IMG/VR virus record: IMGVR_UViG_3300042905_003734
Location: 1 to 21,009 of that record
Reading direction: 5' to 3' (one strand)
Source: a virus
Length of the DNA: 21,009 nucleotides
In this document: positions 15,298 to 20,054 of the stretch, piece after piece
Numbering within the stretch: position 1 is the first letter of the stretch
How the letters are laid out: each line of letters starts with the position of its first letter
Notes under the pieces: generated by a model
Told to the model about the DNA's origin: nothing
Database searches by the model: none
What the model saw: only the letters and a program-made list of their open reading frames with translations
Program-made: the position numbers and the translations under genes

Positions 15298-17706
15298 GTG
15301 TCTCGTGCGACGCAAGAGCTGTTGAATTTCGTGCGCCAGTTGCCGGAGGGCATGGCGTACGCACCGATTTACTGCGCTGGCAGCAAGCTCCAGTCCGGTA
15401 AGGAGTCAAAGGGGAAGGCGCCGCTGGAGCGCAGCCACCATCAAGTGTTGAATCCGGCTGACGTTGCTCTGCAGATTGAGCGGCGGCCTGAGGTGTTCCA
15501 GGCGGTTGGGGTTTTTACCGGGGCTCGCAGCGCGGGACTCGTGATTCTCGACGTGGATCGCAACCTTTCCCGGCTGTTGAAGAAATGGGGCGAGACGCTG
15601 GAGGGGGCGCCGAAGGTCACCAGCACCAAGGCCAACGCGGCGAAGTACCTGTTCCGCGTCCCAGAGGCCCTGTGGGGCGATGTGAAGGGCTTCGGGCTGT
15701 CAGATACCGGAGCGGGGTATGAGGTCCTCTGGGGCCGTCAGGGGCTCCTCTACGGGGCTTATCCGGGCTCCAGTGATGGGAAGGCGCCGGCGGGTGAATA
15801 CGGCTTTGAGGGCGATCTGGAGGCCATTCCAGAGGCTCCAGGGTGGTTGCTGGCGGAGATGCGCGATCACTCCGGTAAAGAGGTGGCTGATGGTGGCTTC
15901 ATCAGGAACCGGAAGGCGCTGGATTTCTCGGATCGAGATCCGGCTGAGATTGCTGAGATTGTGCAGTCGGCGCTGAAAGTAATTCCAGGGCAGGGGGCTG
16001 GCAGCCGGGATCACTGGGTAAAGGTGGGGATGGCGATCCACAGCGAGTTGCCGACTGACCTAGGGCTGACGCTGTGGTCGGCGTGGTCTGCCGAAGATCC
16101 CGAATTTTCACAGGAATGGGCAGATAGCAACCCCTGTGAGGAGGTCTGGAAGAGCTTTCGCAAGGGGCCGGTGAGTCTGGGGACGCTGTTCTGGATGGCG
16201 GACCAGCAGATGCCGGGCCGACTGTGGCTGTCGGAGGATCTGCGGAAGGTGGTGGCCGATGTTGAGGCCGATAATGTCACCCGGATTCGCCAGGTCGTCA
16301 TCACTTACGCCGAGGTGATTCGGCGGGCGAAGGAGATCCAGCAGATTCAAAACCCGGCTGAGGCGGCCCACGCCATGAACGTGTTGGCGCTGGAGGCCGG
16401 TTATCGGGACGCTGGGGCGCTGGAGCGGCTGCTGATTGCCCAGATGCAGTTCGAGCAGCAGGATGACGAGATGGGCCTCGACAGCTTGCTGGATAAAGAT
16501 CTCAAGTTCGAATACTTGATCCCGGATCTGCTGCCGTGTCCTGGGACCGTGATGGTTCATGGTGCTGGTGGTGATGGCAAATCCATGTCGGCCTGGACCA
16601 TCGCCAAGCACGTTGCACGCGGGATTCCGTTCTCGGTACGGGGTGACCTTGTGCCGGTGCAGGCTGGACCGGTGCTGATCCTCAACGGCGACCAGAGCGA
16701 GGTGCAGGTCCAGCAGCAGATGCGGGATCTGGAGTTTCTACGCACCGATCCGGTGACCGTGGTGATGGGGTGGGACCTGAACTGGTACTACCGCTTCGTC
16801 AAGTTGATTGAAAAGCACCGGCCCAAGCTGGTCATCATCGACTCGATCACCGGCTGCTCCAGGGGTTCGGCGTTCGATGAGAACAAAAAGGAGTTTGCGA
16901 GCCCGATCTACTGGTTGGCCAACAACAATGGGCGGCTTTTCCCGGCCTGCACGATCCTGCTGATTCACCACGCCAACAAAACCGGTGGCTTCCGGGGTTC
17001 CACGGCCATCAGGGACGCTGTGGATGAAGTGTGGGGCCTGCGGCGGCCTGACAAGAAGCAGGTGGAGCAGACCGGCTACAACGCCCGCCTCATCACCGTG
17101 GAGAAGTCCAGGGCTGGCCGCGACGGCAGCAAGTTGTTGATGAAGCTGGAGAGCGACCTCACCTTCTCCCTGGCGGACTACGTGGAAGTCGATACCGACA
17201 GCGCCAGCCCGGCCTCGATTGTGGATCGGGTGCTCCAGCGCCTGAGGGCTGCGTATCCCCGCGCTCTGAGCCGCTCTGACCTGGCTGCGGATCCGCTGTG
17301 CGGCGGCAGCGTCACCGCAATCCGCAAGGCGCTCCAGAGGCTTGTCTCGCGGGGGTTGATCGAGGCGGTGGGTAGTGCTGCTGGAGTTGGCGGGCAGGCC
17401 AAGGTGTTCCAGGCTGTTTCTGCCTCGCGTGATATGTGTGTAAATAGTTGTCCCACCTTGGAAAAACCCAGTCAGGGACTGGAAAGAGGGGTGGGACAGC
17501 CTGATGACGTGTCCCACCTTGTCCCACCTTCGGTGGAGAGAGATGGGACAAGCTGGGACAACGCACCTACCTGTCCCACCCCTAAAACCAGTCGTGCCAA
17601 CGGATCTGCCCAGGTGGGACAGCTTTTGGAGGACTCCCCAAAGGAAGAACGCTCCGCCGGCGAACTGGATCAGCTGATGGAGGAAGCGGCGCGGATGTGG
17701 GATTAG
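15298..17706 (+). CDS. Primase-polymerase / RepA-like helicase fusion
   Basis: An 802-aa replication protein. Residues about 1-195 are a bifunctional primase-polymerase (Prim-Pol) domain with the metal motif ILDVD (Asp 85, Asp 87), a STKANAAKYLFR strand near 105-115 and VLWGRQGLLYGAYPG. Residues about 215-305 match a PriCT-2 module (HWVKVGMAIHSE, WSAWS, SLGTLFWMA). Residues about 395-600 are a RecA-fold helicase with Walker A HGAGGDGKS (421-429), Walker B KLVIIDS (510-516) and a HHANKTGGFRGS sensor region (from 557). A winged helix follows (about 645-705). The last 85 residues are low-complexity, and their DNA carries the TGTCCCACC repeats. It should prime and unwind phage DNA, probably initiating at its own gene. 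Start is GTG with AGGAG. Confidence 0.9.
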   Translation: MSRATQELLNFVRQLPEGMAYAPIYCAGSKLQSGKESKGKAPLERSHHQVLNPADVALQIERRPEVFQAVGVFTGARSAGLVILDVDRNLSRLLKKWGETLEGAPKVTSTKANAAKYLFRVPEALWGDVKGFGLSDTGAGYEVLWGRQGLLYGAYPGSSDGKAPAGEYGFEGDLEAIPEAPGWLLAEMRDHSGKEVADGGFIRNRKALDFSDRDPAEIAEIVQSALKVIPGQGAGSRDHWVKVGMAIHSELPTDLGLTLWSAWSAEDPEFSQEWADSNPCEEVWKSFRKGPVSLGTLFWMADQQMPGRLWLSEDLRKVVADVEADNVTRIRQVVITYAEVIRRAKEIQQIQNPAEAAHAMNVLALEAGYRDAGALERLLIAQMQFEQQDDEMGLDSLLDKDLKFEYLIPDLLPCPGTVMVHGAGGDGKSMSAWTIAKHVARGIPFSVRGDLVPVQAGPVLILNGDQSEVQVQQQMRDLEFLRTDPVTVVMGWDLNWYYRFVKLIEKHRPKLVIIDSITGCSRGSAFDENKKEFASPIYWLANNNGRLFPACTILLIHHANKTGGFRGSTAIRDAVDEVWGLRRPDKKQVEQTGYNARLITVEKSRAGRDGSKLLMKLESDLTFSLADYVEVDTDSASPASIVDRVLQRLRAAYPRALSRSDLAADPLCGGSVTAIRKALQRLVSRGLIEAVGSAAGVGGQAKVFQAVSASRDMCVNSCPTLEKPSQGLERGVGQPDDVSHLVPPSVERDGTSWDNAPTCPTPKTSRANGSAQVGQLLEDSPKEERSAGELDQLMEEAARMWD
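17449..17621. repeat. TGTCCCACC iteron cluster inside the primase-helicase gene
   Basis: Perfect TGTCCCACC copies start at 17449, 17510, 17520 and 17572. Perfect reverse copies (GGTGGGACA) are at 17490-17498 and 17613-17621. One-mismatch reverse copies are at 17542-17550 and 17552-17560. Two tandem pairs have a 10-bp period and face each other (17510-17528 and 17542-17560), giving a near-perfect inverted repeat about 20 bp long with a 13-base spacer. The copies fall in different reading frames (CPT, VGQ, SHLVPP), so selection acts on DNA and not on a peptide repeat. The likely role is a replication origin or operator. Confidence 0.8.
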
Positions 17707-17715
17707 GTTGACAGA

Positions 17716-17780
17716 TGCTCGGAAGTGTTGGTAGCGTAATGACGCTCTGGGCATTTCCGAGCACTTTCTCGCTACCAACA
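17716..17780. repeat. Interleaved inverted repeats in the leader of the 17784 gene
   Basis: Arm A TGCTCGGAA (17716-17724) matches A' TTCCGAGCA (17755-17763). Arm B TGTTGGTAGCG (17726-17736) matches B' CGCTACCAACA (17770-17780). The order is A, B, A', B'. An AGCGT/ACGCT hairpin is also possible between B and A'. B' ends 3 bases before the ATG at 17784. A consensus -35 TTGACA (17708-17713) lies just upstream, without a clear -10. The arms may form alternative hairpins, a pseudoknot-like fold, or protein sites. Confidence 0.7.
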
Positions 17781-17783
17781 GTT

Positions 17784-18374
17784 ATGACCATCACGCTTCC
17801 ACGCCGCGAAAGAGCGGCTGCCAAAGTCGGGCCTCGTCTCGATATTTCACCTTTGGATGTAAAAGAGCTGTTGAAAACTCATCAACATGCACTTACACAT
17901 CTGATTTCAACAGCAGAATCATGGGAACCTTTTGCGTGGAAAGGTAATGATCTCTCTGCTCCGTTGCGTGCTTTGTATGTAGCGGAATCGCGTGGTCTTC
18001 TTACGTCTCGTGGTGATCGTGCGGTTAATGTTGCTATCGCCGACATTACTGCCGACATCAATGGTTACCTGGCAAGTTTCGGTAAAACACTTGTTTCCGA
18101 AGCAGCAATCATGAACAATTTGCGCCAGGCATCTTTGTACGTTCAGGCTGCTATTGGCGTGGCAGTGCTACCTGATCGTCGCGCTATGACTGTGCGCTTT
18201 GTTGATGAATACCAAACTGTTGAAAACATCAACAGGTATTTTGACTCGATTAAAGGCAAGCTCCAGCGCCTGGGTTCGCAACTTAAGCACGCCGAGGCTT
18301 GTGGTTATGACGTAAGTCATGTACTGCAAACTGCAGAAAGCAGCACCGGTGTACGGCTTCTTGCTGCTGTCTAA
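17784..18374 (+). CDS. Hypothetical protein
   Basis: A 196-aa protein, start MTITLPRRERAAAKVGPRLD. I prefer ATG 17784 over the in-frame ATG 17715, because the extra 23 residues lie wholly on the inverted-repeat DNA. The protein is mostly alpha-helical (SPLDVKELLKTHQHALTHLI, VAIADITADINGYLASFG, NINRYFDSIKGKLQRLG). Its codons are more AT-rich than those of the primase gene. No family recognised. It lies in a run of three genes that share the CTACCAACA leader, followed by its own terminator. It is probably an early or accessory gene of the replication region. Confidence 0.7.
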   Translation: MTITLPRRERAAAKVGPRLDISPLDVKELLKTHQHALTHLISTAESWEPFAWKGNDLSAPLRALYVAESRGLLTSRGDRAVNVAIADITADINGYLASFGKTLVSEAAIMNNLRQASLYVQAAIGVAVLPDRRAMTVRFVDEYQTVENINRYFDSIKGKLQRLGSQLKHAEACGYDVSHVLQTAESSTGVRLLAAV

Positions 18375-18388
18375 CAGAAACTACCCTC

Positions 18389-18416
18389 GCCCCCGTGTAT
18401 AAGCGGGGGCATTTTT
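18389..18416 (+). terminator. Terminator after the 17784 gene
   Basis: A 7-bp stem GCCCCCG/CGGGGGC (18389-18395 with 18404-18410, 8-nt loop) is followed by ATTTTT. The next gene's CTACCAACA leader starts two bases later, so this hairpin may also belong to that leader. Confidence 0.85.
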
Positions 18417-18417
18417 A

Positions 18418-18426
18418 CTACCAACA
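18418..18426 (+). promoter_or_regulatory. CTACCAACA leader motif, second copy
   Basis: A perfect nonamer 6 bases before ATG 18433, immediately after a terminator-type hairpin. It replaces any visible Shine-Dalgarno sequence. The other copies are at 17772-17780 and 19453-19461. Confidence 0.6.
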
Positions 18427-18432
18427 CACCAC

Positions 18433-19425
18433 ATGACAACCGCAATCATTCCCGAAGTTCTTGGGCTTAAGACACAAGTCCTTGAAACTTCACCGATGAC
18501 TAGTGCCGAAGAAAAGGAACTTGTCATCGTAAAAACGGCGATCCGAACCGCGTATGCCGACAAGCTGGAGCGCGACCTGGCTATTGGTGCAGGGCTGCTG
18601 CAGATCTTCCGCCGCAAGCTCTACCGAAGCAAGGAAGGTGGGCGCAAATGGGAACAGTGGCTAAAAGACGAATCCGCCGACCTGACCGGAGGCCGTGGCG
18701 CCATTGCAGAAGACACCGCTCAATACTTGCGCGGCTTTTATCGGTTCCGTTGCGAAGTGTTACAGCCGCAGGGCCCGGGCCCTGGCAGTTTGCCTCTTCC
18801 GGCCTCACCCAAACAGGTTCGCCCCTTACTCGGTCAGCTCGATAACCACCCTGATGCAGCGGTGGAGATGTGGAAAGCGGCTGTGGCCGACGCCAAAGGC
18901 AAGGTGCCGACCTTTGATCAGGTAAATCGCGCCGCTCTGGCATATAAAGCCAATGAGGCCAACGAGGCGCGGCGTTTATCTGCTGCTCAGCAGGCATCAC
19001 AGCAAAAAGCGGTAGCTGCTAGTCGTGCTGCAACCGCTTCAACAATAGAAAGTGAGCCGTCTTACGACTTCCACCAAGCGGCGCCAAGTCCCAATATTCC
19101 CGCTTGGGAATTGGAAAAAGATGACAGCGCCATAGATGCTGGTGCTGAGTGTAAACGGATTACACAAGCCCTTAATGATGCCCATAAAGCGATCGGTTTA
19201 CTGCGTGGAATCCTTTACAGCCAGATAAACAAATATGGCCGCGACTATTTGGGTTTTTTACGCCAGGTAGACGCTGGTATTTACAGCCTGCACAACATTG
19301 ATAGCCAGGTTCATCAGATCGGCGATGACATTGCCTTTGTGTCTGAACTACTGGTTGCTGATGTGGGTGAAGGCGAGCTGGCGGCTTCCACAGTGCAGGT
19401 AACTAGCCTTCCCACTAGAGAGTGA
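18433..19425 (+). CDS. Putative DNA-binding protein, ParB/KorB-like pattern
   Basis: A 330-aa protein. Residues about 40-100 (ADKLERDLAIGAGLLQIFRR, KLYRSKEGGRKWEQWLKDES) and the LPLPASPKQVRPLLGQLDNH segment with VEMWKAAVADAKGKVPTFDQV resemble plasmid or phage DNA-binding proteins of the DUF3102/ParB-related sort. In those an 'S-x-V-R-P-L' motif precedes a W-x-x-A-V helix. A Gln- and Ala-rich linker (about 175-225) leads to a C-terminal helical domain (LNDAHKAIGLLRGILYSQIN). It could bind the nearby repeats and regulate replication or partition. That link is inference. Start ATG 18433. Confidence 0.55.
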   Translation: MTTAIIPEVLGLKTQVLETSPMTSAEEKELVIVKTAIRTAYADKLERDLAIGAGLLQIFRRKLYRSKEGGRKWEQWLKDESADLTGGRGAIAEDTAQYLRGFYRFRCEVLQPQGPGPGSLPLPASPKQVRPLLGQLDNHPDAAVEMWKAAVADAKGKVPTFDQVNRAALAYKANEANEARRLSAAQQASQQKAVAASRAATASTIESEPSYDFHQAAPSPNIPAWELEKDDSAIDAGAECKRITQALNDAHKAIGLLRGILYSQINKYGRDYLGFLRQVDAGIYSLHNIDSQVHQIGDDIAFVSELLVADVGEGELAASTVQVTSLPTRE

Positions 19426-19429
19426 AAAA

Positions 19430-19449
19430 GGGTCGGTTTAACCCGACCC
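19430..19449 (-). promoter_or_regulatory. Hairpin between the ParB-like gene and the 19475 gene
   Basis: GGGTCGG (19430-19436) pairs with CCGACCC (19443-19449) around a 6-nt loop. The A-run is on the left (19425-19429), so as an intrinsic terminator it would work only on the minus strand, where I see no gene to end. On the plus strand it lies 3 bases before the third CTACCAACA. Confidence 0.55.
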
Positions 19450-19452
19450 CAT

Positions 19453-19461
19453 CTACCAACA
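19453..19461 (+). promoter_or_regulatory. CTACCAACA leader motif, third copy
   Basis: A perfect nonamer 13 bases before ATG 19475, just after a 7-bp hairpin. The following leader (CTCCATTACACC) has no Shine-Dalgarno sequence and resembles the CACCAC stretch after the second copy. Confidence 0.6.
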
Positions 19462-19474
19462 CCTCCATTACACC

Positions 19475-19951
19475 ATGAAATCGACCACCAAGAACCTCCT
19501 TCGTAAGGCGGTTACAGAGGCACTTGACGCCAAAGATGACGCTGCTGCTTTTGAACTTCTCGGACTGTTGCTGGATTCTCCATCGCAACGCGATGTGGAA
19601 CCTGTTGTTCCAGCTTTACCTGCGGCCTGTGATGTTGTTACTGGACCAGCTCATGACTATCATCATTGGGCTAAATTTATTAGGGAACATTTTATTCCTT
19701 TTATGCATATGAACGGGCGTAGTCGTTTTACAAGTTATGAGTTGTTTTCTTGGATGCAAAATTGCGGCTTACTTTCCTTAACTACAGGTGATATAGAAAC
19801 ACATCAGGACGGAAAACCTGTGTGGAGAAACATAACATCTAATGCATTAAAAAACCTCAAACAGCAAGGTATTATTCACGCTCCGGCTTGGGCTAAGGAC
19901 TACACAATTCAAACTGCTAAGTCTGTGCAAGGTTTGCTTAATGGCACCTAG
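19475..19951 (+). CDS. Hypothetical protein with winged-helix-like C-terminus
   Basis: A 158-aa protein, start MKSTTKNLLRKAVTEALDAK. The N-terminal 35 residues form an acidic helix. From about 70 on, HHWAKFIREHFIPFMHMNGR, FTSYELFSWMQNCGLL, VWRNITSNALKNLKQQGII and HAPAWAKDYTI read like helix-helix-wing DNA-binding architecture, where 'NALKNLKQQGII' would be the recognition helix. The gene is visibly more AT-rich than its surroundings, suggesting separate acquisition. It is the third gene with the CTACCAACA leader. Family not recognised. Confidence 0.65.
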   Translation: MKSTTKNLLRKAVTEALDAKDDAAAFELLGLLLDSPSQRDVEPVVPALPAACDVVTGPAHDYHHWAKFIREHFIPFMHMNGRSRFTSYELFSWMQNCGLLSLTTGDIETHQDGKPVWRNITSNALKNLKQQGIIHAPAWAKDYTIQTAKSVQGLLNGT

Positions 19952-20054
19952 GCTGCGTTAATCGTACAACCGGTTTCCGGCGCCCGATCCGAAAGTGCCT
20001 AACTTTTTCCTAGGGCTCATGCGGGTTGCCGCGTGGCTGATCTGGAGGGACACC

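Follow-up and report, generated by a model that had tools for sequence, protein, structure and literature searches.

Whether two interleaved inverted repeats in front of a phage gene act in RNA, by masking the start of translation, or in DNA, as part of a promoter, is the question raised by the window analysed here, the whole of a 21-kb viral contig with a structural protein similar to those found in Synechococcus phages. Both repeats, of 9 bp (A/A') and 11 bp (B/B'), are perfect and lie before the ATG at 17784 exactly where an earlier note on this DNA had placed them (Table 1). Arms A and B are 1 nt apart, B' ends 3 nt before the ATG, and together they constitute the sole interleaved pair with arms of at least 8 within 80 nt in the window. 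Among 2000 dinucleotide-preserving shuffles of the 78-nt stretch, an inverted repeat of at least 9 arose in 9, one of at least 11 in 1, and an interleaved pair with arms of at least 7 in 3. The sequence of arm B is present only in the window phage and in L002, and a two-arm DNA pattern search recovered L002's contig along with only two loci, both without the cassette context described below. ATG 17784 is supported as the start by the protein alignment, which begins there, and by a stop 9 nt upstream in the related locus L004.

Table 1 Features of the cassette and its control region in the window
Feature	Positions	Strand	Remarks
Inserted three-gene cassette	17707-19994	+	2288 nt; between primase stop and next phage gene p109
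Candidate -35 box TTGACA	17708-17713	+	from sequence; spacing and similar boxes in relatives
Arm A	17716-17724	+	TGCTCGGAA; in promoter spacer; outer arm of 48-bp dyad
Arm B	17726-17736	+	TGTTGGTAGCG; inverted leader-word copy; overlaps candidate -10; perfect 11 bp with B'
Candidate -10 box TAGCGT	17732-17737	+	46 nt to ATG; distance common to relatives
Palindrome AGCGT-N4-ACGCT, candidate operator core	17733-17746	.	AGCGTAATGACGCT; axis 17739.5
Candidate 5'-terminal stem-loop of promoter transcript	17744-17762	+	GCTCtGG GCATTT CCGAGC; from folding; weak here
Arm A'	17755-17763	+	TTCCGAGCA; 3' arm of candidate stem-loop; perfect 9 bp with A
Arm B'	17770-17780	+	CGCTACCAACA; contains first leader word
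Leader word, first copy	17772-17780	+	CTACCAACA; within B', 3 nt before ATG 17784
p196, first cassette gene	17784-18374	+	196 aa; relatives at 62-75% identity
Terminator-like hairpin, then T run	18389-18410	+	before second leader
Leader word, second copy	18418-18426	+	CTACCAACA; 6 nt before ATG 18433
p330, second cassette gene	18433-19425	+	mostly helical
Hairpin before third leader	19429-19450	.	terminator-like on - strand
Leader word, third copy	19453-19461	+	CTACCAACA; 13 nt before ATG 19475
p158, third cassette gene	19475-19951	+	predicted winged-helix-like protein; weak HTH/winged-helix Pfam matches

The inserted cassette and its genes

The repeats stand at the upstream end of a three-gene insert. 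In 70 of 80 listed primase relatives (primase 75-100% identical) the junction is empty, with p109 following 8-23 nt after the primase stop, while in 8 it is filled by inserts of 946-2288 nt, one of which, L073, is the same contig as L002 and near-identical to the window; 2 were not decided. DNA identity to sister phages breaks at 17700-17715 and resumes at 19997/19998. The cassette is one that this cyanobacterial phage has acquired and that is missing from most sister phages, and the junction shows where genes are inserted in picocyanobacterial phages, the empty and the filled state being both clear. The same junction holds other cargo in L074, L075/L076, L127, L135, and L146/L150. Candidate promoters head four of these cargos, with an exact TTGACA in L074, L075, and L135 and TTGCGC in L127, and in the L075, L135, and L127 cargos a 9-10 bp stem begins 1-4 nt after the -10 (p 0.0005-0.001); candidate promoter and stem are weaker in L074, and no such promoter is evident for the L146/L150 insert. 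In L075 and L135 a further inverted repeat brackets the -35 box (GTGGTGC/GCACCAC; ATAGGCGC/GCGCCTAT). In L127 and L075 a T run comes behind the stem downstream of the -10, so that this stem could be an early terminator.

Going by the definition of Hendrix et al. 1999 as relayed in the account of cyanophage P-SS2 (PMC2784084), a moron is a transcriptionally autonomous extra gene in tailed phages. Morons are further characterised by a promoter and a terminator of their own and by independent expression, for example from a prophage. The cassette resembles a moron so defined in lying between genes that are adjacent in sister phages (70 of 80 junctions empty) and in having its own candidate promoter and terminator-like hairpins. 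It differs in comprising three genes that have one leader word in common and in the dyads at its candidate -10/+1 region, its own transcription being predicted. The terminator-like hairpin with a T run is situated inside the cassette, and no + strand terminator was found at its 3' end.

Relatives of the cassette comprise 15 viral loci encoding the 196-aa protein, L029 recovered via alignment, and seven more recovered via the 330-aa neighbour. The three genes form a block in most of them, with no p158 match in L040, L041, or the L042 group. p196 matched no Pfam or PHROG family, the p158 model (mean pLDDT 78) has no confident fold match, and fold searches of p158 and p330 returned nothing at E 0.001 or better. 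No member of the same protein family was found in named phages or in bacterial genomes, the genome scan having used degenerate patterns on a single genome from each species. In L008 (6653-7726) the central region of p330 differs from that of L004 amid close neighbouring genes, as if a domain had been swapped. A serine recombinase and an HTH gene lie upstream of the cassette in L008 (L048, 13510-15969) and also in L004, suggesting a temperate phage.

Candidate promoter, palindrome, and 5' stem-loop

Upstream of p196 we identified a candidate sigma70 promoter, TTGACA-N18-TAGCGT, which matches 6 of 6 positions at -35, has TAnnnT at -10, and has a spacing of 18 nt, inside the 16-19 nt taken to define such box pairs. 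Its score is matched by 1.8% of shuffles, and a stricter promoter scan did not list it. From the end of the TAnnnT -10 to the ATG there are 46 nt in the window, L009, L013, L015, and L041 and 45 nt in L029, a distance of 45-46 nt in six divergent p196 lineages. The -35 match is good (at most 3% of shuffles) in the window, L009, L029, and L040 and weak elsewhere, as in the L005 group, L006, L041, and the L042 group; no more than about half of the lineages have a promoter score above that of 95% of shuffles. From the position of these boxes we infer that transcription starts at approximately 17744, within the repeat region, which would leave A and B outside the mRNA.

A third dyad, AGCGTAATGACGCT, missed by the earlier note, shares its axis with A/A', and the two together form an imperfect dyad of 48 bp, symmetric at 17 of 24 half-positions, that is among the window's two best of that size. 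Across 16 related records there are eight AGCGTN4ACGCT sites, seven of them just upstream of p196 and the eighth within an ORF of L008's contig; the palindrome is missing in L003, L005/L006/L010, L009, L013, and the L042 group. L040 and L041 have AGCGT/ACGCT half-sites spaced at 9-nt intervals upstream of p196. The suggestion in the earlier note of a two-site operator at the DNA level thus came closer than its RNA proposal, in that a palindrome of conserved sequence overlaps the predicted -10/+1 region, and a promoter with an operator is likely here. The HTH gene of L004/L008, sought as a repressor gene, was only distantly matched in three other records and had no match in the window fragment. 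p158 was rejected as the operator-binding protein, having no match in the L040/L041 loci, which retain the palindrome.

In relatives the predicted mRNA frequently opens with a stem-loop whose sequence varies. The stem near the predicted +1 is strong in L009, L029, L015, L013, and L005. The window, L003, L004, L040, L041, and L042 have a weak stem or none, and none of these six, the window's own stem included, reaches significance in an ungapped test. Over 11 lineages, +1 stems of differing sequence give a combined p of 9e-7 in a test framed after the folds had been seen. The 3' arm contains TCCGA, placed at -28 for the window, L009, and L015 and at -27 for L029.

We consider it fairly likely that this stretch is the control region of a moron-type cassette in a picocyanobacterial phage, combining a sigma70-type promoter, dyads around -10/+1, and start-associated leaders. 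TTGACA-N18-TAGCGT would start transcription near 17744, and the 48-bp dyad centred on AGCGT-N4-ACGCT would most likely be a regulator site, a bound regulator shutting the promoter, with A and A' as its outer arms in DNA. The main transcript would hold only A' and B', of which A' would close a short 5'-terminal stem-loop and B' would supply the leader word that also precedes the other two genes; B is a lineage-specific inverted copy of that word over the candidate -10.

A leader word shared within each phage

The word CTACCAACA precedes all three cassette genes of the window. Relatives have leader words of their own, namely CTATCAAC in L009, GTCCCACC in L004 and L008, CACTACA in L015, and CTACCAAC or close forms in L003 and L029, always on the same strand and in one orientation before start codons; the p330 gene of L009, which abuts its upstream gene, has no leader word. 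The within-genome sum of shared-word lengths is 162 against a permuted mean of 117 and was reached in 0 of 20,000 permutations, for seven hand-chosen lineages that are not seven independent words, since L003 and L029 share the window's word. No such signal appeared in five neighbouring control windows. Sequence comparison leaves both the insert and the leader words well supported, and the more unusual feature of the cassette is that the leader word is shared within each phage and often different between phages.

The nearest known cases are the SAS/ESAS elements of cluster K mycobacteriophages and the stoperators of cluster A phages, and neither fits fully. In cluster K the SAS is a single word of 13 bp, GGGATAGGAGCCC, that includes an SD core, is present in 11-19 copies per genome, and is conserved across the cluster; some copies carry an added inverted repeat (ESAS), and the function is unexplained (PMC3203893). 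Like SAS/ESAS, the leader is short and asymmetric and precedes the start codons of only some genes by a few nucleotides, in one orientation and at 3, 6, and 13 nt from the ATG in the window. Unlike SAS/ESAS, it is 7-11 nt long, occurs in three copies, and varies between phages; the window has CTACCAACA and relatives other C/A-rich words in place of GGGATAGGAGCCC, with no SD core. Inspection of other genes showed that many phage genes here are without an SD. Stoperators are defined by a bound phage repressor that blocks elongation. The sites also resemble cluster A stoperators and operators in being asymmetric, directional, and phage-specific in sequence (PMC6550527), but are far fewer, stand beside the start codons of one cassette only, and would be bound by a repressor that is itself putative.

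Alternative readings of the repeats and leaders

The earlier note had A:A' and B:B' as mutually exclusive hairpins, or as a pseudoknot, opening and closing the p196 start from the 5' leader, a reading we regard as very unlikely. The repeats exceed chance expectation, and read-through RNA from the primase gene, the immediate upstream neighbour on this strand, could hold all four arms. In modelled read-through RNA spanning both arms the two folds are within 3-5 kcal/mol; of four contexts, three favour the A hairpin, by 3 to 5 kcal/mol, and one favours B, by 3 kcal/mol. Against this, the leader is largely unpaired (0.71-0.77) in long read-through models, where the start would not be clearly masked. 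For the modelled promoter transcript the leader is approximately 0.8 unpaired when folded to 17830 and 0.3-0.4 when folded to 17880, indicating that accessibility depends on the length of coding sequence folded. Compensatory change, the check that the note had set, was not borne out among relatives, where an ungapped comparison anchored at the ATG leaves 2-5 of the 9 A pairs and 1-8 of the 11 B pairs intact, and the repeat pairs are missing from approximately 12 divergent relatives. The note had also named a transcript start inside the repeat as grounds for abandoning the switch, and the candidate promoter would place the start 3' of both A and B. An H-type pseudoknot calls for both stems to be transcribed, which that start would prevent, and for compensatory change, which the relatives do not show; bridging an 11-bp stem with a first loop of 1 nt is also difficult. 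The RNA switch is unlikely because half of each repeat would lie in the promoter DNA of the cassette; the interleaved repeats probably form no such switch, and a testable promoter model takes its place. An Rfam search for a known RNA family gave three matches up to E 1, all below the gathering score. A further RNA-level account, in which the dyads around +1 are only a 5' stem-loop shielding the mRNA from decay with no DNA-binding regulator, seems to us unlikely but worth keeping in view. Several lineages have a stem that starts close to the predicted +1 or right at it, with sequence fully turned over and pairing kept, also in unrelated cargo, and 5' stem-loops that stabilise bacterial mRNAs are documented (PMC7509114). 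The window resembles those mRNAs in having a stem-loop at or near its predicted 5' end, and differs in that its own stem is weak and any effect on decay would be putative. AGCGTN4ACGCT, however, is conserved in sequence and not just in pairing in seven records and, for the window, L015, and L029, begins 5' of where transcription would start, and the stems of L127 and L075, with their T runs, look terminator-like instead.

For the leaders, we tentatively suggest that a travelling cassette carries a set of start-associated words that is swapped wholesale between phages, which would imply a co-evolving trans-acting factor, protein or RNA, licensing or blocking these genes only; we hold this as a possibility rather than as the expected outcome. 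If such a factor reads the leader words, they would resemble the unexplained SAS/ESAS of mycobacteriophages, and the natural variants CTACCAAC, CTATCAAC, GTCCCACC, and CACTACA would permit direct specificity swaps. It is rather improbable that the words are stoperator-like, with a DNA-binding protein encoded by the cassette or phage bound at each gene and B and B' as two such sites in opposed orientation on either side of the promoter. Asymmetry, constant placement on the coding strand between genes, and phage-specific sequence are traits that the word shares with L5-type stoperators (PMC6550527), and B sets a second, inverted copy over the -10. Yet there are just three forward, gene-tied copies in this cassette only, compared with up to approximately 30 in cluster A phages, relatives have no inverted copy, and the binding protein is putative. 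The central region of p330 was rejected as the leader reader, since L004 and L008 have different versions of it but the same leader word, GTCCCACC, and B was rejected as a trans antisense to the leaders, there being no inverted copy beside the cassette in relatives.

Upstream of the cassette, the 3' end of the primase gene (17450-17620) contains a possible origin-type array of six GTCCCACC copies on both strands, inside which, at 17535, lies the window's other strongest 48-bp dyad. The placement of the repeats next to a putative origin, as the earlier note had it, may be fair in view of this array, although the array is part of the primase gene and the repeats are part of the separate inserted cassette. 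Similar arrays are found within the primase gene of many relatives (L053-L072).
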